A program made the translations under genes and the position numbers. Of a DNA stretch of 48,751 nucleotides, positions 3,461 to 12,276 are shown piece by piece; position 1 is the stretch's first letter; each line of letters starts with the position of its first letter. The stretch is from positions 1 through 48,751 of the forward strand of contig JAFGAV010000042.1 of assembly GCA_016933515.1 (NCBI GenBank). The letters are read 5' to 3'. Below the pieces are notes generated by a model that made no database searches, was not told the origin of the DNA, and saw nothing but the letters and a program-made list of their open reading frames with translations. The stretch comes from Candidatus Aminicenantota bacterium (GTDB taxonomy: Bacteria > Acidobacteriota > Aminicenantia > Aminicenantales > JAFGAV01).

Positions 3461-4969
3461 ATGTTCCGCAAAATCCTGATCGCCAACCGCGGCGAGATCG
3501 CCGTCAGGGTGATCCGGGCCTGCCGCGAGATGGGTATTGTCCCCGTGGCGGTTTATTCCGAAGTCGACCGCGCCGCCCTGCACGTGCGCCTGGCGGAGGA
3601 GGCCTACGCGCTGGGCGGCTCCTCGCCCGCCGAATCTTATCTGAACATCGAGAAGATTCTGGCCGTCGCCCGCTCCTGCGGAGCGGAAGCCGTTCATCCC
3701 GGCTACGGATTCCTGGCCGAGAACGCCCGTTTTGTGGAGAGGTGCGAGCAGGAGGGCCTTGCTTTCATCGGCCCCCCCTCCCGGCCTATGGACTTGATGG
3801 GGCGAAAGACCACGTCCCGCAAAGTCATGTCCGAAGCGGGCGTCCCGATCATTCCCGGAACCATGGAGCCCATCCGGGACGAGCGCGATCTGAGGGACGC
3901 CGCCGCTCAGGTCGGCTACCCTCTCCTGCTCAAAGCCTCGGGAGGCGGAGGAGGGAAAGGATTGCGCCTCGTCCGTGACGCCTCGGAATTGGCGTCCGGG
4001 TTCAACATGGCCCGCTCGGAGGCCGAATCAAGCTTCGGCGATTCCGCGGTTTACATCGAGAAGTACATCGACGATCCTCATCACATCGAGGTTCAAATCC
4101 TGGCCGATCATCACGGCCGGACCGTTTTTCTGGGCGAGCGGGAATGCTCCCTGCAGAGGCGCTACCAGAAGGTCCTCGAGGAGACGCCTTCGCCTTTCCT
4201 CGACGACGAGACGCGGCGCCGCATGGGGGAGACGGCGGTTCGCGCGGCGGCCGGCATCGGCTACCGGAACGCCGGCACCGTGGAGTTCATCGTCGACGGC
4301 CGAAAAAATTTCTATTTCCTGGAAATGAACGCCAGGCTCCAAGTCGAACATCCCATCACCGAGATGGTCACCGGAATCGATCTCGTGAAAGCGCAACTCG
4401 AGATCGCCGCCGGGATTCCTCTCGACCTCAAACAGGAAGACATCCGGCCCCAGGGGTGCGCTCTGGAATGCCGCATCTACGCCGAGGACCCCGACAACGA
4501 TTTTCTCCCCTCGCCGGGGAGGATCCTTCATCTCCACAACCCGGCCGGAGGATTCGGCATCCGCGAGGACAGCGGCGTTTACGAAGGTTTCGTCGTCCCC
4601 TTCGAGTACGACCCCTTGCTGGCCAAGCTGATCGCCTGGGGAAAGACGAGGGACGAGGCCCTGCGGCGCATGCGGCGCGCTTTGTCCGAATACCGCATCT
4701 ACGGCATCAAGACCACCGTCCCTTTTTTCAAGCGGATTCTGTCTCATCCCCGTTTTCTCGGCGGGGACTATACGACGCATTTCATCGCCGATATGGAAAA
4801 GGAGACCCCGATCGAATCGAGCGAGGAAAAACGGGTGGCCGTCCTGGCGGCGGGCCTCAAGAGCTTATGGGACGCCCGGCACGAAGCGTCTTATTCCTCG
4901 CGGGGAGCCGTCAGTCCGTGGAAGCTCCGTGGCCGCGCGGAAAGCCACTCCAACGCGAGTCTGAGATGA
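3461..4969 (+). CDS. accC: Biotin carboxylase subunit of acyl-CoA carboxylase
   Basis: This 502-residue ATP-grasp enzyme starts MFRKILIANRGEIAVRVIR, as AccC/PccA proteins do; the ATG at 3461 fits the family better than the longer reading frame starting at 3308. Seen in order are the biotin carboxylase N-domain (1-110, with HPGYGFLAEN), the ATP-grasp glycine loop GGGGKGLRLV (about 164-173), ECSLQRRYQK, the active-site run MNARLQVEHPITEMVTGIDL (about 288-307), and the C-domain with CALECRIYAEDP. It carboxylates biotin with ATP and bicarbonate. There is no fused carrier domain; the carrier is the next gene, whose ATG overlaps this stop. The last 40 residues are low in family similarity. Confidence 0.92.
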   Translation: MFRKILIANRGEIAVRVIRACREMGIVPVAVYSEVDRAALHVRLAEEAYALGGSSPAESYLNIEKILAVARSCGAEAVHPGYGFLAENARFVERCEQEGLAFIGPPSRPMDLMGRKTTSRKVMSEAGVPIIPGTMEPIRDERDLRDAAAQVGYPLLLKASGGGGGKGLRLVRDASELASGFNMARSEAESSFGDSAVYIEKYIDDPHHIEVQILADHHGRTVFLGERECSLQRRYQKVLEETPSPFLDDETRRRMGETAVRAAAGIGYRNAGTVEFIVDGRKNFYFLEMNARLQVEHPITEMVTGIDLVKAQLEIAAGIPLDLKQEDIRPQGCALECRIYAEDPDNDFLPSPGRILHLHNPAGGFGIREDSGVYEGFVVPFEYDPLLAKLIAWGKTRDEALRRMRRALSEYRIYGIKTTVPFFKRILSHPRFLGGDYTTHFIADMEKETPIESSEEKRVAVLAAGLKSLWDARHEASYSSRGAVSPWKLRGRAESHSNASLR

Positions 4970-5457
4970 ACATGACGCTGTGGATCGAAGGAGAGGAATT
5001 TCGGCTCAGGCTCGAGGAAAAGGAAGGCGGCCGCTATCGCGCGGCCCTGAACGGCAGGGACCACGATGTCTCGGCCGAATTCATCAATCCCGACGAGGTT
5101 CTCCTGAACGTCGACGGCCGGGTTTTCAACGTGACCCTCAGCCGCAAAGCGGATGTCCGATCGGTTTACGTCAACGGCCGCAGGTTCCAGGTGGAAAGAA
5201 CCGCGGCGTCCCGTGTCTCCGGACAGGAGCGCGGCCGTTCCAGGAGAAAGGACGTCTCGGTTTCCATGCCGGGCCGAGTGGTGCGGATCCTGGCCGAGGA
5301 GGGAAGCCAAGTCATGGAAGGACAGCCGGTCATGATCCTGGAAGCCATGAAGATGCAGAACGAAATCAAGGCGCCGCGTTCCGGGACGCTGCGCCGGCTC
5401 GGAGCCCGCGCCGGCGTAACGGTCGAAGCCGGAGCCGTGTTGTTCACGGTGGAGTGA
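4966..5457 (+). CDS. Biotin carboxyl carrier protein (biotin/lipoyl-attachment domain)
   Basis: This 163-residue protein has a biotinyl domain in its last 70 residues. The biotin-accepting lysine is K129 in EAMKMQNE, and the domain is bounded by VSMPGRVVRIL and the closing strand TVEAGAVLFTVE. The first 95 residues form a beta-rich region similar in layout to the BT (biotin-carrier/transferase bridging) part of propionyl-CoA carboxylase alpha chains, followed by a basic linker (QERGRSRRKD). The start overlaps the stop of the biotin carboxylase (ATGA), so the carrier appears to be a split-off C-terminal part of a PccA-like chain. It would swing carboxybiotin between the two upstream enzymes. 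Confidence 0.9.
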   Translation: MNMTLWIEGEEFRLRLEEKEGGRYRAALNGRDHDVSAEFINPDEVLLNVDGRVFNVTLSRKADVRSVYVNGRRFQVERTAASRVSGQERGRSRRKDVSVSMPGRVVRILAEEGSQVMEGQPVMILEAMKMQNEIKAPRSGTLRRLGARAGVTVEAGAVLFTVE

Positions 5458-5466
5458 ATTTGAAGG

Positions 5467-8400
5467 ATGAGCAAGAAAACGGTCGTCCTGTTGATCATCC
5501 TCGCGGGGTTGATTCTCCTGCCTCTGGCCGCCGGCGTCGTCGTCCGCAACGTCATCCTCCGCCAGGTCCGGGGGCAGGTCGAAGATCATTTCGAGTACAG
5601 CCGGATGAAACTGTCGGCTTTCCCGCCCGTCTTGGTCATCGAAAACATCCGCAGCAAGCCCGGGGCTCCCAATTTTTCGGCCCAGAGCGTCTCTCTGTCC
5701 GTTCCCCTTCGCTCGCTTCTGTCGTCGGACCGGCGCGTGACCCTGGCCGTCGAACGCCCCGTCTTTCGTCTTTCCGAGTCCGCCGCTCCCGGCGCCGAGG
5801 CGTTTGAGGTCGAGATCCCTTTCGCCGTCGAGCGGGGCGTGATTCACGAGGGGGAGTTTCATTACCGCGGCGGAATCCGCTTGCGGGCTCGCGGCGTGAA
5901 CGCCTTTTTCAACTGGCGGAAGGACCGATATGAGGTCCAGGCGCGCATTCAAGAGTCCTTGGTTTTCCTTCCCGGCGTCGAGGAACCGATGGCCGGGTAC
6001 GTGCGTCTTTCGCTCGAGGGCGGACAGGGAGCGACGCGGGTCAGGCGCCTGACGGCGAGCGGCCCGTCCCTTTATCTCCGGTTGGCGGGGGATATCGAGG
6101 CGGACAAGCCGCTCGTTTCCTTGGCCGGAGATTTCAACCTCAAATCCGCTTGGCTGGCGGACTATCTCGACCTTCCCTTTTCCTGGACGGGAGAGGTTCG
6201 CGGCTCGGGGCGGATCGCGGTCCGAGAGGGGCGGCTTGAAATCGAAGGCGACCTCGACAGCCGGGACCTGGCCATCAACCGCGTGCCCCTGGGGAAGGTG
6301 CGGGGACGGGTCGAGGTGGAGGAATCGGGGGAGGGCCGCTTGGACGTCGCCGCCGTATCGGCGTCGGGTCACCGCCAGGAGTTGCGGCTGTCCTTCACGG
6401 GGACGAGGATCGAAGGCCGAGCCGAAAGCTTATTCCTCGATCCGGTGATGAGGGACATCTCTCTTCCCTGGCCTGTCCGTTCCGCGGCCTGGGGCCGCTT
6501 CGCCCTGCAGAACGGGAGGCTTGAAGCCGAGGCGGAATTCCGCGACGATGTCTCCTCGCCGGATGTCGAGCCCGGCCGGTTTCCTCTGCAGGGGGCGTTC
6601 ACTCTCAACTGGGACGGGAAAGAACGGGTCCGTTTCCGCTCCCCGGAGATGGATTCCTCCTTCGGCCTGCTGTCCCTGGATGCGGATCTGGACATCGGGA
6701 GGACGTTCGATATGCGCCTCGCCGGGCAGGTCAAGGACGTCAAGCTCGCCCGCCGCTTCACGTCCCTCATGTTGGAGGAGGATTTTGATTTTCCCGAAAT
6801 TCGCGGCCGCGGAAACGCCGAGATCCAAATTTCCGGCCCGTTTTCTTCCCCCCGCGTCCGGATGAAATTTTTTCTTTTTCCCGGGGCCCTGGACAGGCTG
6901 GAGGCGGATTTCATCGAGGGCACGGCCGACATCGACACCGGGGAAGAACGGGTCACAATCTCCTGCCGGGCCGACGACCCGGAGCTCATGGGCCGGGCGG
7001 ACGTGTCCGTCGGGCCGGAGTCCTGGAAGGCCGACATCGGACTCAGCCGCGGGCTTGTGGAGCGCCTTTTCCCGGCGCTCGACATTCCTCTGCCGCTCAG
7101 CGGCGAGGGCCGGGGAGAGTTCGAGATCGTCGGACGCGAAGACCGCGTTTCCGTGTCCGGGGAGTTCGCGAGCCCGCGGGTGTTTCTGGGATCGCAGGAA
7201 TTCGACGACGTGAAGGGAACGGTCGCTTTCCAGGAAGACGAGGAATTGCGTTTTCCCTCGCTGGAGCTGACCGCTTTCGGCGGCCGCGTCTCGGGATCGG
7301 GTCGGCTCGGCCTGTCCGACGACACCTTCCGCCTGGATGTCTCGGGAAACGAGTTGGACCTGAGCGGATTTGAGTCGGGGCTCCAAGGCTTTTTGTCCTT
7401 TCGGCTGAGCGGCGAAGGGATTCGGGGGAAGGATCCGGTCAAGGGAACGATCGAAATCCGGAATCCGGGCTACGGAAGCATCGCGGCTTCCCGGGCTGAG
7501 GGCGACGCGATGGTCCTTTTTTCCGATCAGGTTCTTGAGGCGTCATGGAAGGGCCAGTTCCGTCCGGGAGAGAACGATTGTTCCCTGAGCTTTCTCTTCC
7601 GATTCCCGGACCGTTCCTATGCCGCGGATGTCAAGGGATCGTTCTCCGACCTGGACATCCTTCTCCCCTGGAAGGGAGCCCGGGGGCAGATCAATTATCT
7701 GGCCGAAATCCGGGGGCCGTCGGGCCGACCGGGATTAAAGGGCGTCGTGGATTTTCAGGGCTCCCTGCTGCCCATCCCCGATTTCTCGCAGGCGGTGAGC
7801 GATTATTCGGGACTGGTGTTCATCGAGGATGGGAACGTTTCGCTCCGTTCCTTCCGGGGCACGCTGGGAGGAGGTCCGGTCGAGGCCACGGGAGAGCTCC
7901 TCCTCGGGCGTAAGGAAGGCGTGGGCGTGGATTTCACGATCGAGGGCCAGGGGATGCGGCTCGCTCCCCTGGAGAGGACGCGGGTCCTGACCGACGGCCG
8001 CCTGCGCCTCGTCAAGGACAGCGACAGATTCGTCCTCGATGGGGATTTCGATGTCCAATCCCTGTCCTGGCGGCGCGAGCTGTCCGAGAAATTCAGCTTC
8101 AGTTCGGAGCCGTATTATCAGCCGGACGCCGAGAAGGGATTTTTCGACGACCTGACGCTGAACATCAATCTCCGGGCCGAGGACGATGCCTGGGTGGAAA
8201 ATTCCCTGGGACGCGCCCGCGGCCGGTTCGATCTCAACGTCACCGGATCGGTTTCCGATCCCATCCTGCTGGGCGAGATCGAATTGCTGGACGGATTCGT
8301 GTTCTTTCAGGACCGGAAATTCACCCTCCTGCGGGGCAATCTCCGGTTTTTCAATCCCATGGCCGTCGATCCGTATCTGGATTTCAGGGGAGAGACTTAT

Positions 8401-8871
8401 GTCAAGGACTACCGCGTCACGTTTTCGCTGTCCGGGCTCCTCGACCATCTCAAGACGGAATTTACGTCCTCTCCGCCCCTGCCGCCCGAGGACGTCCTGG
8501 CCCTCCTGGTCATGGGAGAAGCGTTCAAACGCACCTACCGAGCCGAAACAAGCGCCCAGCTCAGCTCGGCCACGCTGCTCACCCTCCAGCTTTTTGAAGA
8601 GGCCAAAAAACGGGCGTCCAAACTTCTGAGCATCGACCGTTTCCGCATCGATCCCTTCATTCTGGGCACCTCTTCCGAAATGACCGCCCGCCTGACGGTG
8701 GGGAAAAGGATCAGCAGAAATCTGTTCATTTATTACTCGACCAACCTGTCGACCCAGCGCGAGGAGATCGTCAGGATGGAATGGGAGCTCGGGGAGAATC
8801 TGTCCCTGGTCGGCATTCGGGACGATCTCGGACGGATGAGCCTCGATTTCAAGGTTCGCAAGAGATTTTGA
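5467..8871 (+). CDS. tamB: TamB-like translocation/assembly module protein (DUF490)
   Basis: This 1134-residue protein has one N-terminal membrane segment (about 5-25, VVLLIILAGLILLPLAAGVV) and then about 1,000 residues of repetitive beta strands with GEFEIVGRE, SGRLGLSD and GTIEIRNPG-type units. That pattern is typical of AsmA/TamB bridge proteins. The C-terminal 250 residues are the conserved TamB domain: GRFDLNVTGSVSDPILLGEI, FQDRKFTLLRGNLRF, PPLPPEDVLALLVMGE and YYSTNLSTQREE. Family members span the periplasm from the inner membrane to an Omp85 protein and serve barrel insertion or phospholipid transport. The Omp85 partner follows two bases after the stop. An AAGG lies right against the ATG, so translation may depend on coupling to the carrier-protein gene nine bases upstream. 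Confidence 0.88.
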   Translation: MSKKTVVLLIILAGLILLPLAAGVVVRNVILRQVRGQVEDHFEYSRMKLSAFPPVLVIENIRSKPGAPNFSAQSVSLSVPLRSLLSSDRRVTLAVERPVFRLSESAAPGAEAFEVEIPFAVERGVIHEGEFHYRGGIRLRARGVNAFFNWRKDRYEVQARIQESLVFLPGVEEPMAGYVRLSLEGGQGATRVRRLTASGPSLYLRLAGDIEADKPLVSLAGDFNLKSAWLADYLDLPFSWTGEVRGSGRIAVREGRLEIEGDLDSRDLAINRVPLGKVRGRVEVEESGEGRLDVAAVSASGHRQELRLSFTGTRIEGRAESLFLDPVMRDISLPWPVRSAAWGRFALQNGRLEAEAEFRDDVSSPDVEPGRFPLQGAFTLNWDGKERVRFRSPEMDSSFGLLSLDADLDIGRTFDMRLAGQVKDVKLARRFTSLMLEEDFDFPEIRGRGNAEIQISGPFSSPRVRMKFFLFPGALDRLEADFIEGTADIDTGEERVTISCRADDPELMGRADVSVGPESWKADIGLSRGLVERLFPALDIPLPLSGEGRGEFEIVGREDRVSVSGEFASPRVFLGSQEFDDVKGTVAFQEDEELRFPSLELTAFGGRVSGSGRLGLSDDTFRLDVSGNELDLSGFESGLQGFLSFRLSGEGIRGKDPVKGTIEIRNPGYGSIAASRAEGDAMVLFSDQVLEASWKGQFRPGENDCSLSFLFRFPDRSYAADVKGSFSDLDILLPWKGARGQINYLAEIRGPSGRPGLKGVVDFQGSLLPIPDFSQAVSDYSGLVFIEDGNVSLRSFRGTLGGGPVEATGELLLGRKEGVGVDFTIEGQGMRLAPLERTRVLTDGRLRLVKDSDRFVLDGDFDVQSLSWRRELSEKFSFSSEPYYQPDAEKGFFDDLTLNINLRAEDDAWVENSLGRARGRFDLNVTGSVSDPILLGEIELLDGFVFFQDRKFTLLRGNLRFFNPMAVDPYLDFRGETYVKDYRVTFSLSGLLDHLKTEFTSSPPLPPEDVLALLVMGEAFKRTYRAETSAQLSSATLLTLQLFEEAKKRASKLLSIDRFRIDPFILGTSSEMTARLTVGKRISRNLFIYYSTNLSTQREEIVRMEWELGENLSLVGIRDDLGRMSLDFKVRKRF

Positions 8872-8873
8872 CC

Positions 8874-11600
8874 ATGACTTTGCGTTGGATGGGGACGGCC
8901 GCCCTGCTCCTTTGGCTGTGGACCGGTCCGCCGGCCGTCCTTGCCCTCGGGGCCGGGGAAACGATCGCCCGCGTGGACGTCTTCCTGGACGGCGAGGAGG
9001 CTCCGCCGGAGATCCGGAGTCTGGTCTCGGTCAAGGCCGGGGGCGCTCTCTCTCTTCAAAAGGTCGACGACAGCCTCATCCAGCTCTACCGCACCGGGCT
9101 GTTTTCCGACGTGAGGATCGAGCGTCGTGAGGGCGAGGAGACGGTCCTGATCTATGACCTGACCAAAAAGCTTTACGTACGCAGCCTGGTTTTCCCCTCC
9201 GGTCAGGAGCTTCCCCAAAAAACCCTTCGTTCCGGCCTGACGACGCTGCGGCCCGGTTCGGAATTCAACGAAAACTGGGTGAGCCGGGCCGCCGCCGAGA
9301 CCGAGGACATTCTCCGCCGGGAGGGCTTTTTCGGGGCGCGCGTCCGGGCCTCGGCCGTTGCCGACAGGCCGGCGGGAACCGTGGACATCCGATTCGACAT
9401 CCAGCCGGGACGGCGCTATATCGTCTCCTCGGTCGACCTGCGCTCGGACGTCGACCTCGACGAGCGCGCCTTCGCCAAGCGGATGTCCGTCCGGCCGGGG
9501 AGGCTTTTCGCGCCTTCCCTTCTGGAAAAGGATATGGACGTTCTCGCTTCCGTCCTTCGGGACGCCGGCTACCAGCGGGCCAGAGTCGAGGCCGAAAAAC
9601 CGGTCTTCGACGACAACCGCGGGACGGCCGACCTCGTCCTGAACATCGAGGCGGGGGAGAGGATCGAAATCGTCGTCAACGGCGCCTCGGTGCCCACGGA
9701 GCTCATCAGACCCATCTGGGAGGAACGCGTTTTTGAGGAGTGGGGCCTCCAGGAGGGCGAGGCGCGCATCCTGTCGTTCCTAAGGAAGAAGGGCCACATC
9801 TTCGCCCTCATTTCTTCCAGGATCGAAAAAGACGACAATTTGATCCGGGTGGTCCATGACGTGGAGCCGGGAGAGCGGTGTCTGATCCGGAGCGTGCGCT
9901 TCGAAGGGCTGTCGCACTTCGCCCCGGAAGAGATCGAAGCCGCGCTGGAGCTGGCGCCCGTGTTTCCGGGACTGAGCGTGCTCGACGGCGAGCGTGTTTT
10001 CAGCCTGCCCGAGGATATCAGCTATCTTTACCGAACCCAGGGATTTTCCCGGCCGCGCATCGAGCTCGACTTCGAACGTCAAGGACGGTCGGTCACCGTG
10101 GTCTACAAAGTGGATGAGGGGCCGCGCGAAACTCTGAACCGCGTCCTGGTCGAAGGAGCCTCCCTCTTCAGCCCGTCCGAACTGATGGAGGAAATCGGGA
10201 GCCGACCGGGCGGACCGTTCTTTCAGCCGAACATCCAGATGGACGTGGAGCGGCTGGAATCGTTCTATCTCGACCAGGGTGTGCGGGGGACGAGAATCAC
10301 GGCCGAGGCACTTCCGGAATCCCAGGGCCTCTACGACCTGGTGTTTCACGTCCAGGAAGGCCGCCGCGTCCTGGTGGATAAAATCACGATCACCGGCCGG
10401 AAAGCCACCCGACGAAGCACCATCCTCCGCGAGATTCGGTTCCGGGAGGGCGAGCCGCCCTACCGGCAGGCCCTGCTCGACACGCGGCGGAACTTGGAAC
10501 GGCTGGGCATTTTCACCGAGGTCAAGATCGAGGAAATCCCCGTCTCCGCCGAGAAGCAAAATGTCGTCGTCAGCCTCCGGGAAGGGGGGCGGAACTACGT
10601 CTCCTTCGGCGTGGGTTTGGAGAACAAGAACATCCCCTTCTCGCTTACGGTCTGGGAAAACGTCATCAGCCCCCGCGGCACGGCCGAATACATCCGTTAC
10701 AACGTGTTCGGCGACGCCTCCCAGTTCAGCGTCGTCGGGCAATTCAGCCTGAAGGAAAAGAGGGGAGTGGTCTCCTATGAGCAGCCGTACTTCTTCGGCC
10801 TGCCGTTTCAAAACATCCTGAGCGGCTGGCTGGAACGAGAGGACCGGTCGAGCTACGGATATGACCGTCGCGGCGCGAGCCTGAGCGGCGTCATGCCTTT
10901 CGTCCGGGATTTCCTTCTGCTCGCCGCGCTGACCTGGTCGAGCACGACGCTCTATTACCTGGACATCGCCGAGAACGAGATCGACCGTCAGTTCTACCCC
11001 TTTTCCAAAACGTCGGTTTCGTTCAGTGCGTTCCGGGACCGGAGAGACGATTCGGTCAATCCCGTCCGCGGCTCGTTTCTGAGCGCTTCCTTGGAGTGGG
11101 CGTACCCGCTGTTCGGCGTCGAGTCGGATTTTCTCAAGCTGTTCGCCAAATACCAGGTCCATACCATCTTCTTCTCCTCGCTCCGGATCAGCGCCACCGC
11201 TCGGGTGGGCGTCGGTCAGGGCCGCATGCCCATCCACGAACGATTCTTCGCCGGAGGGAGCAATTCCTTCCGCGGGACGGATTTCGACGAGCTCGGGCCC
11301 ATGGATCCTCAGTCGGGCCGGCCGGTCGGCGGCAAAGTCCTCTTCCTCATCAATCTCGAGACGTCTTTTCCCGTCATCGCCGCCCTGCGGGACCTGAGCT
11401 GGGCGTTTTTTTTGGACGTCGGCAACGTTTTCGCCAAGAGAAAGGATTTCAACGTGCTCAAACTCAAGGCCGCCGTCGGTTTCGGCCTGCGCTACCGCAC
11501 GCCCTTGGGGCCCATTCGTCTGGACCTCGGCCTGAGCCCCCAGGCTCCGACCGGCCAGAAGAAAATCTTTCCCTTCCTCACCATCGGACATGTGTTCTAA
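8874..11600 (+). CDS. Omp85-family outer membrane assembly protein (BamA/TamA-like) with about seven POTRA domains
   Basis: The start at 8874 gives 908 residues with a signal peptide (about 1-25, LLLWLWTGPPAVLA). The frame also opens upstream at 8781, but that would overlap tamB and bury the signal. I count seven POTRA-like units, each ending in a helix pair and a G-rich strand. They begin near ARVDVFLDG, YVRSLVFPSG, YIVSSVDLRSD, IEIVVNGAS, IRSVRFEGLSHF, NRVLVEGASLF and VDKITITGRKAT (residues about 27-605). The barrel (about 610-908) has the Omp85 loop FFAGGSNSFRG, the strand GLRYRTPLGPIRLDLG and a terminal phenylalanine, which is an outer-membrane sorting signal. With the upstream TamB-like protein it probably forms a TAM-type complex. 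A main BamA role cannot be excluded. Confidence 0.9.
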   Translation: MTLRWMGTAALLLWLWTGPPAVLALGAGETIARVDVFLDGEEAPPEIRSLVSVKAGGALSLQKVDDSLIQLYRTGLFSDVRIERREGEETVLIYDLTKKLYVRSLVFPSGQELPQKTLRSGLTTLRPGSEFNENWVSRAAAETEDILRREGFFGARVRASAVADRPAGTVDIRFDIQPGRRYIVSSVDLRSDVDLDERAFAKRMSVRPGRLFAPSLLEKDMDVLASVLRDAGYQRARVEAEKPVFDDNRGTADLVLNIEAGERIEIVVNGASVPTELIRPIWEERVFEEWGLQEGEARILSFLRKKGHIFALISSRIEKDDNLIRVVHDVEPGERCLIRSVRFEGLSHFAPEEIEAALELAPVFPGLSVLDGERVFSLPEDISYLYRTQGFSRPRIELDFERQGRSVTVVYKVDEGPRETLNRVLVEGASLFSPSELMEEIGSRPGGPFFQPNIQMDVERLESFYLDQGVRGTRITAEALPESQGLYDLVFHVQEGRRVLVDKITITGRKATRRSTILREIRFREGEPPYRQALLDTRRNLERLGIFTEVKIEEIPVSAEKQNVVVSLREGGRNYVSFGVGLENKNIPFSLTVWENVISPRGTAEYIRYNVFGDASQFSVVGQFSLKEKRGVVSYEQPYFFGLPFQNILSGWLEREDRSSYGYDRRGASLSGVMPFVRDFLLLAALTWSSTTLYYLDIAENEIDRQFYPFSKTSVSFSAFRDRRDDSVNPVRGSFLSASLEWAYPLFGVESDFLKLFAKYQVHTIFFSSLRISATARVGVGQGRMPIHERFFAGGSNSFRGTDFDELGPMDPQSGRPVGGKVLFLINLETSFPVIAALRDLSWAFFLDVGNVFAKRKDFNVLKLKAAVGFGLRYRTPLGPIRLDLGLSPQAPTGQKKIFPFLTIGHVF

Positions 11601-12276
11601 TCCACGAGGTTTTCGCGGCGCGGCCGGACTGGCGGCAACGGCCTGGCTTCTGACCGGGGTGTGCGCGGCCGGCTTGGGCGGCGGCGCGCTTGCCGCGGAT
11701 ACCCTCGATTGTCTCTTGGCGCGAGTCAATGACCAGCCCGTCACCCTGATCGAAGTCAGGATCCTGGAGGCGTTCGGCGTTTTCAGGGAGGACGGCGCAT
11801 CGGGCCCGAGGGAGGTGCTCGACCGATGGATCGACCTCAAAATCGTCATCGATCTGATCAAGAAAACGGTTTCTGTTTCCCCCGAGCGCGTCGCCGCCGC
11901 CCGCGACCGGGCCTTGGCCGGCATGGACGGCGCTCGGGCCGAGGAGGCATTCAGAGCGTTCGATCTGGAACCCGACGACCTGTTGCCCTTTTTCGAACAG
12001 AAACTGGTCTTCGAGGAGATCATTTTTATGAGATTCAGCCGCAGCGCCATCGTGACGCTCGGGGAGATCGAAAGCTATTACCAGAAGACCTACGCGCCCG
12101 AGCAGCGGAGCCGCGGGGAGGAGCCGCGCCCTCTCCTCGAGGTGTTGGACCGGCTCGAAATGCTTCTCAAGACGGAGAAAATCAGGAGTCAGGCCGCCGC
12201 TTGGGTTCAGAATCTTCGCCGCCAGGGCGATGTCCGGATCCTGGAGGGCTGCCTGAACGCCCTGATCGGAAAATGA
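11590..12276 (+). CDS. SurA N-terminal-like periplasmic protein without a PPIase domain
   Basis: This 228-residue protein has a signal peptide-like start (AAGLAATAWLLTGVCAAGLGGGALAA, about 9-35) followed by LARVNDQPVTLIEVRILEAF, which resembles the VNxxxIT..EL start of SurA/PpiC chaperones. Helices with DRWIDLKIVIDLIKK and RSAIVTLGEIESYYQKTY also match the SurA N-terminal helical fold. No parvulin catalytic domain is present, so a chaperone-only role is likely. Its start overlaps the last 11 bases of the Omp85 gene, which supports a function with that barrel protein. The match rests on short motifs, so the specific role is an inference. Confidence 0.65.
   Translation: MCSNPRGFRGAAGLAATAWLLTGVCAAGLGGGALAADTLDCLLARVNDQPVTLIEVRILEAFGVFREDGASGPREVLDRWIDLKIVIDLIKKTVSVSPERVAAARDRALAGMDGARAEEAFRAFDLEPDDLLPFFEQKLVFEEIIFMRFSRSAIVTLGEIESYYQKTYAPEQRSRGEEPRPLLEVLDRLEMLLKTEKIRSQAAAWVQNLRRQGDVRILEGCLNALIGK

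Follow-up and report, generated by a model that had tools for sequence, protein, structure and literature searches.

Several Omp85-family partners of TamB have been described. In Proteobacteria, the partner is TamA, an Omp85 barrel protein with three POTRA domains whose gene lies side by side with that of TamB, while in Bacteroidota the TamA-like partner TamL is a lipoprotein. TamB, together with YhdP and YdbH, has been linked to lipid transfer in other species. A cryo-EM study of TamAB found the last strand of TamB paired with the first strand of TamA in one of two states (PMC12800296), and in E. coli POTRA1 of TamA is required for TamB binding (PMC4525385). In Borrelia the sole BamA, a five-POTRA protein, pairs with TamB in a hybrid BAM–TAM system, and completion of its barrel by the TamB C-terminus has been predicted (PMC13382580). 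The closest precedent comes from the Acidobacteria, where a second BamA is encoded in a putative operon with TamB and in some cases carries seven POTRAs (Heinz, Selkrig, Belousoff and Lithgow 2015; PMC4494059); the third of the seven is named as the divergent one, and whether this divergent internal unit is a genuine POTRA is left as a question. The cited statements, and the comparisons made with them below, draw on excerpts of the four papers.

Here we describe a locus of Candidatus Aminicenantota (assembly GCA_016933515.1) in a window, by which we mean the whole 48,751-nucleotide stretch of contig JAFGAV010000042.1 that was analysed. Its Omp85 gene is a member, from Aminicenantes, of the kind already known from Acidobacteria since 2015, with which it shares all three features: it is a second Omp85 besides a canonical BamA, it stands in a putative operon with TamB, and it has seven POTRAs. 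As in Proteobacteria and Borrelia, the Omp85 and TamB genes form a pair; however, Borrelia uses its only BamA, whereas the window system appears to use a dedicated paralog. In related genomes we also find TamB and Omp85 joined in one chain, a form of which the excerpts of Heinz et al. (2015) make no mention and for which a search of the open-access PubMed Central literature (without preprints) found no report of TamA or another Omp85 protein fused to TamB.

Domain organisation of the window Omp85 protein

The Omp85 gene, its domains and its two immediate neighbours are arranged as follows.

5467–8871, plus strand: TamB, 1134 aa, with an N-terminal membrane anchor, an AsmA/TamB-like body and a C-terminal TamB domain (PF04357, 4.6e-39)
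8874–11600, plus strand: Omp85-family outer-membrane protein, putative TamB partner, 908 aa, from the ATG at 8874 to the stop at 11600
8874–8954, plus strand: signal peptide, residues 1–27 (sequence and low pLDDT over residues 1–27), without a lipobox cysteine
8958–9170, plus strand: POTRA W1, residues 29–99 (model and profile), matching BamA POTRA 1
9171–9407, plus strand: POTRA W2, residues 100–178 (model and profile), matching BamA POTRA 2
9414–9653, plus strand: POTRA W3, residues 181–260 (model and profile), extra relative to BamA, equivalent to the first POTRA of the fusion
9654–9872, plus strand: POTRA W4, residues 261–333 (model and profile), extra and divergent, equivalent to the second POTRA of the fusion
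9876–10121, plus strand: POTRA W5, residues 335–416 (model and profile), BamA POTRA 3-like
10125–10361, plus strand: POTRA W6, residues 418–496 (model and profile), BamA POTRA 4-like
10365–10589, plus strand: POTRA W7, residues 498–572 (model and profile), BamA POTRA 5-like and barrel-proximal
10596–11597, plus strand: 16-stranded Omp85 beta-barrel, residues 575–908 (Pfam, model and structural comparison), last residue Phe
11590–12276, plus strand: SurA-N-like periplasmic protein, 228 aa, overlapping the Omp85 gene by 11 nt, a conserved neighbour

A Pfam scan detects seven POTRA stretches at E <= 1 (six at E <= 0.1) and an Omp85 barrel (8.7e-44). The same scan finds five POTRAs in E. coli BamA, five in the canonical BamA of the same genome and two of the known three in E. 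coli TamA; since the three controls give the right count or too few, the scan never overcounted in these controls. An AlphaFold2 model (40-row alignment, pLDDT 83, pTM 0.64) contains seven complete beta-alpha-alpha-beta-beta units (residues 30–98, 101–177, 183–259, 263–331, 337–414, 420–494 and 500–570) followed by 16 barrel strands, and in it the odd internal POTRA also has a POTRA fold, which for this protein answers the question of Heinz et al. (2015) in the affirmative. Both approaches bear out the first-pass annotation, which had read about seven POTRAs ahead of an Omp85 barrel and proposed structure prediction as the check: the model holds seven units rather than five or fewer. The translation has no cysteine within residues 1–40 and hence no lipoprotein signal; in contrast to TamL, the protein carries an ordinary signal peptide.

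Structural comparison of model residues 337–908 places TamA of P. aeruginosa at the top (Z 25.6, rmsd 7.2, 510 aligned residues), a further likeness to the proteobacterial system, with the first E. coli BamA row ranking fourth (Z 24.3). Against the NCBIfam BamA equivalog TIGR03303 the protein scores 358.6, above the cut-off of 297.15, and against the TamA equivalog 90.4 bits, below the cut-off of 625. The TamA-type first POTRA (PF17243) gives no Pfam match at E <= 1 in the window protein and matches 14 of the 40 rows of its family at E <= 0.1. Antisense to the gene runs an open frame of 756 codons (window positions 9780–12050, minus strand), most likely a coding shadow of GC-rich sequence.

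Conserved linkage to TamB

The start codon of Omp85 follows the TamB stop codon after two bases. The TamB domain, which substantiates the TamB-like gene proposed directly before the Omp85 gene, covers residues 796–1130, a hydrophobic N-terminal stretch is visible in the translation, and no other PF04357 match was detected in the genome. The genome collection supplied 25 named loci, of which 22 bear the title Candidatus Aminicenantes; in 24 of the 25, TamB is directly upstream of Omp85, and the contig of the 25th starts inside the gene. Beyond these, in other families and classes, a separate TamB frame stands beside Omp85 in 13 of 14 window-type loci, the fourteenth (L152) being fused. The window protein itself was matched in all 59 genomes searched, its own included. 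Downstream, the SurA-N-like gene is found in 22 of the 25 named loci and FabD in 23. The SurA-N-like gene is thus a conserved neighbour, while its SurA-N label has weak support: SurA_N is matched in 6 of 14 orthologs, and the window copy has no Pfam match at E <= 0.1.

A separate canonical BamA

The genome contains four Omp85 matches in all, the window gene among them. One is a canonical BamA that has five POTRAs and lies just ahead of skp and fabZ; the first-pass annotation had proposed a search for just such a gene beside skp or lpxD. Used as a query, this BamA finds a match (E <= 1e-30) in every one of the 60 Acidobacteriota genomes sampled, the weakest rows of which may be paralogs. In our trees the canonical BamA of this genome falls inside the canonical BamA clade and the window gene outside it. 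As a five-POTRA BamA exists separately, the window gene is not the sole insertase.

The two remaining matches are a 374-residue barrel in which no POTRA is matched (L003, 922–2043, on contig 32 of the same genome, G000) and an Omp85-like barrel behind WD40-like (PD40) repeats (L004, 25–2085, G000 contig 94), which resembles the Omp85 WD40-like group of Heinz and Lithgow (2014). An unusual-looking further Omp85 in another genome (L078 in G003) was rejected as an ordinary BamA. NCBIfam naming would give two BamAs in the genome of the window, since the TamB partner exceeds the TIGR03303 cut-off.

POTRA equivalences and conservation

Single POTRAs of the window protein (W), of BamA (B) and of the one-chain fusions described below (F) were compared by profile. 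W1 matches B1, W2 matches B2, W3 matches F1, W4 matches F2, and W7 matches both B5 and F5; W5 and W6 are equated with B3/F3 and B4/F4 partly by order, their scores alone being ambiguous. W3 also scores well against BamA POTRA 4, and W4 has no good counterpart among the BamA POTRAs (best profile probability 78%). Five of the seven POTRAs therefore match BamA POTRAs 1–5, whereas the two extra internal POTRAs, the TamB linkage and the separate clade set the window protein apart from the five-POTRA BamA. It is the fourth POTRA that is least like those of BamA here, while the excerpts of Heinz et al. (2015) call the third divergent. The five POTRAs of the main fusion match W3–W7, so the main fusion reads as TamB joined straight to W3–W7.

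Within the order, POTRA conservation in the unfused family is highest at W4 and W7 (0.521 and 0.520), whereas the W4 equivalent in the fusion is of average conservation (0.384, fourth of five). The excess of W4 over its neighbours in the order amounts to +0.13 in the unfused set (95% column bootstrap 0.063 to 0.199, 40 rows) and 0.00 in the fused set (15 rows); across the phylum the unfused excess is only borderline, at +0.046 (interval -0.009 to 0.104), and the fused value is -0.01. High conservation of W4 in unfused but not in fused proteins suggests that W4 may dock TamB. The signal thus points to POTRA 4 rather than to the last POTRA, for which co-evolution with the TamB C-terminus had been proposed, and the docking idea fits in kind with the need for TamA POTRA1 in E. 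coli. A direct equation of TamA POTRA1 (PF17243) with W4 was dropped: L152 and L155 show the PF17243 match at W4, L158 shows it at W2 and L126 at its third POTRA, and the profile scores of TamA POTRA1 are spread.

One-chain TamB–Omp85 fusions in relatives

A second Omp85, in a frame some 2,100 codons long, occurs in 16 of the 59 genomes, plus one in which the frame is cut by a contig end, and each of these (16 + 1) has a two-gene-type match as well. Counting as a fusion any single uninterrupted frame to which the TamB and Omp85 portions of the query both match, we find such frames in 31 of the 142 genomes from the class (7 families) and, mostly with 2,000–2,450 codons, in 78 of the 396 Acidobacteriota genomes sampled (29 families), each genome being a different species. 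The phylum count is a lower bound because only matches at E <= 1e-60 were kept; four more long frames were excluded as borderline. The one-chain proteins of the Acidobacteriota include L060–L076 and L114–L133, and three genomes (G122, G292 and G317) carry two fusion copies each. No TamB–Omp85 frame was found in the genome of the window, which is 89.8% complete.

The first three fusion frames scanned display an AsmA/TamB-like N-terminus, a TamB domain, POTRAs and an Omp85 barrel. Matches to TamB, POTRA and Omp85 are present in all 21 whole frames scanned (those left from 36 fetched after removal of near-duplicates and incomplete ones) and in 35 of 35 C-terminal parts. A hydrophobic helix lies near the start in 30 of the 36 fetched frames; two of the other six run off the contig end, in two the hydrophobic stretch lies deeper inside the frame, whose start was probably picked too early, and two are unexplained. 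Outer-membrane barrels typically end in phenylalanine, and this is the final residue in 34 of the 35 fusion frames that have a stop codon.

Five POTRAs were counted in 48 of 49 main-fusion frames, the other one being truncated, and seven in 65 of 69 window-type proteins; the counting profiles were built from the window and fusion families, to which the proteins in those sets are therefore bound to conform. Among proteins outside the profile sets, all ten of L152–L161 have seven POTRAs, and L163 and L165 have six.

A structural model of the last 1,185 residues of a fusion (pLDDT 77, pTM 0.60) has TamB strands and a linker modelled with low confidence, then five POTRAs and a barrel of 16 strands; the join contains no stop codon, and the linker is only about 17 residues long in this protein. 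Six of 50 structural rows against the model start at the last TamB strands, near residue 375. A hybrid-barrel contact in the model is only a hint, because pLDDT there is low; if TamB paired with the barrel as in the TamAB structure, the chain would have to turn back from the paired strand to the first POTRA.

Broken copies also occur: L065 (3163–9579) has two in-frame stops and G089 a frame change on contig 334, and intact copies are present in relatives of both. A convergent gene for a TPR protein (L072, 11512–12201, and its equivalents) is present in 17 of the 36 loci, which span distant families, and in most of the 17 it adjoins the 3' end of the fusion. Function could not be read from the fusion's neighbours, among which, beyond one genus-like cluster, only this TPR gene recurs (17 of 36 loci). 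With regard to fusions outside the Acidobacteriota, none of the 68 plasmid records matching the fusion query covers 80% of it.

Descent of the family

In a tree of 106 rows the Omp85 parts of the fusions form one group (SH-aLRT 92) within the window-type group, and the two jointly stand apart from BamA (95). A 69-row tree with bootstrap likewise unites window type and fusion in one clade (100/98) apart from BamA, with the fusion group itself at 93/91, just short of the mark of the tree program. TamA, which with its three POTRAs also differs from the window protein in domain number, forms a separate clade in this tree, read without L212, a row labelled TamA that is in fact a BamA.

L152 (G180, 4699–11904, minus strand) does not fit the main fusion. 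It is fused to TamB, yet all seven POTRAs are kept, with W1–W2 retained between TamB and W3, and no obvious signal peptide is seen at the TamB/Omp85 join. It groups with unfused proteins, and its placement among the other fusions is rejected (p-AU 0.0005). Because L152 stands apart in the tree, the trees imply that TamB and Omp85 were fused at least twice, provided that the single contig of G180 is right; as it still has W1–W2, loss of these two POTRAs is not required for fusion.

A probable two-gene TAM and its possible one-chain form

Computation shows which domains are present, that the linkage is conserved, that BamA is separate and that the one-chain proteins are kin to the same Omp85 clade, and it is from the gene linkage and the fused paralogs that we infer an Omp85–TamB complex. 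The window quite probably encodes a two-gene acidobacterial TAM, composed of TamB and a seven-POTRA Omp85 with a TamB-linked pair W3–W4, while general barrel assembly would be left to the separate five-POTRA BamA. TamB would be anchored in the inner membrane and span the periplasm, to be received at the outer membrane by the Omp85 protein. The latter may be viewed as BamA POTRAs 1–2 and 3–5 with the pair W3–W4 inserted between them, W4 being the putative main docking surface for TamB. The cargo moving along TamB would more likely be phospholipid than client barrels, by analogy with the work on TamB, YhdP and YdbH.

The first-pass annotation had offered two functional readings, a machine combining BAM and TAM roles or an expanded TamA. 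For the former, in which the window Omp85 would be main insertase and TamB partner at once, there is the Borrelia precedent, in the excerpts of that paper, and a TIGR03303 score that names the protein BamA; with a canonical BamA beside skp and fabZ in the same genome, a BamA match in every Acidobacteriota genome sampled (weakest rows possibly paralogs) and the window gene outside the BamA clade, we regard the hybrid as highly improbable. What stands of the second reading is a TamA-like partner of TamB, on the strength of the 24 of 25 linked loci, the tree and the TamB-fused paralogs. The BamA-like character of W1, W2 and W5–W7 could also indicate a second BamA with clients of its own, next to TamB merely through an old operon accident, but the linkage is maintained across families and two independent covalent fusions to TamB lie inside the same clade, which makes this very unlikely.

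On balance, the fusion is plausibly a one-chain bridge of about 2,000–2,450 residues from inner to outer membrane, arisen at least twice from the two-gene pair, with W3–W4 as the TamB docking module. Its N-terminal helix would sit in the inner membrane and its C-terminal barrel in the outer membrane. Covalent attachment of TamB to W3 in the main fusion may have relaxed the need for a docking surface, and with it the extra constraint on W4. The broken copies might instead suggest that the long frames are artefacts of assembly or gene calling, or the chain might be cut in two after translation, so that no single chain spans the envelope. Such an explanation is unlikely given the spread of the frames over different species in 7 and 29 families (31 of 142 and 78 of 396 genomes), the short join without a stop codon, and the complete set of matches in 21 of 21 whole frames.

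Implications

Automated annotation would label the window-type protein BamA, which calls for caution. Whether TamB and its Omp85 partner act as a stable 1:1 bridge, which POTRA docks TamB and how the end of TamB meets the barrel are live questions that bear on bacterial lipid and outer-membrane protein traffic. The natural one-chain form sets both the stoichiometry and the order of the parts, is encoded by a single gene and allows a side-by-side comparison with the two-gene form within the same cells.
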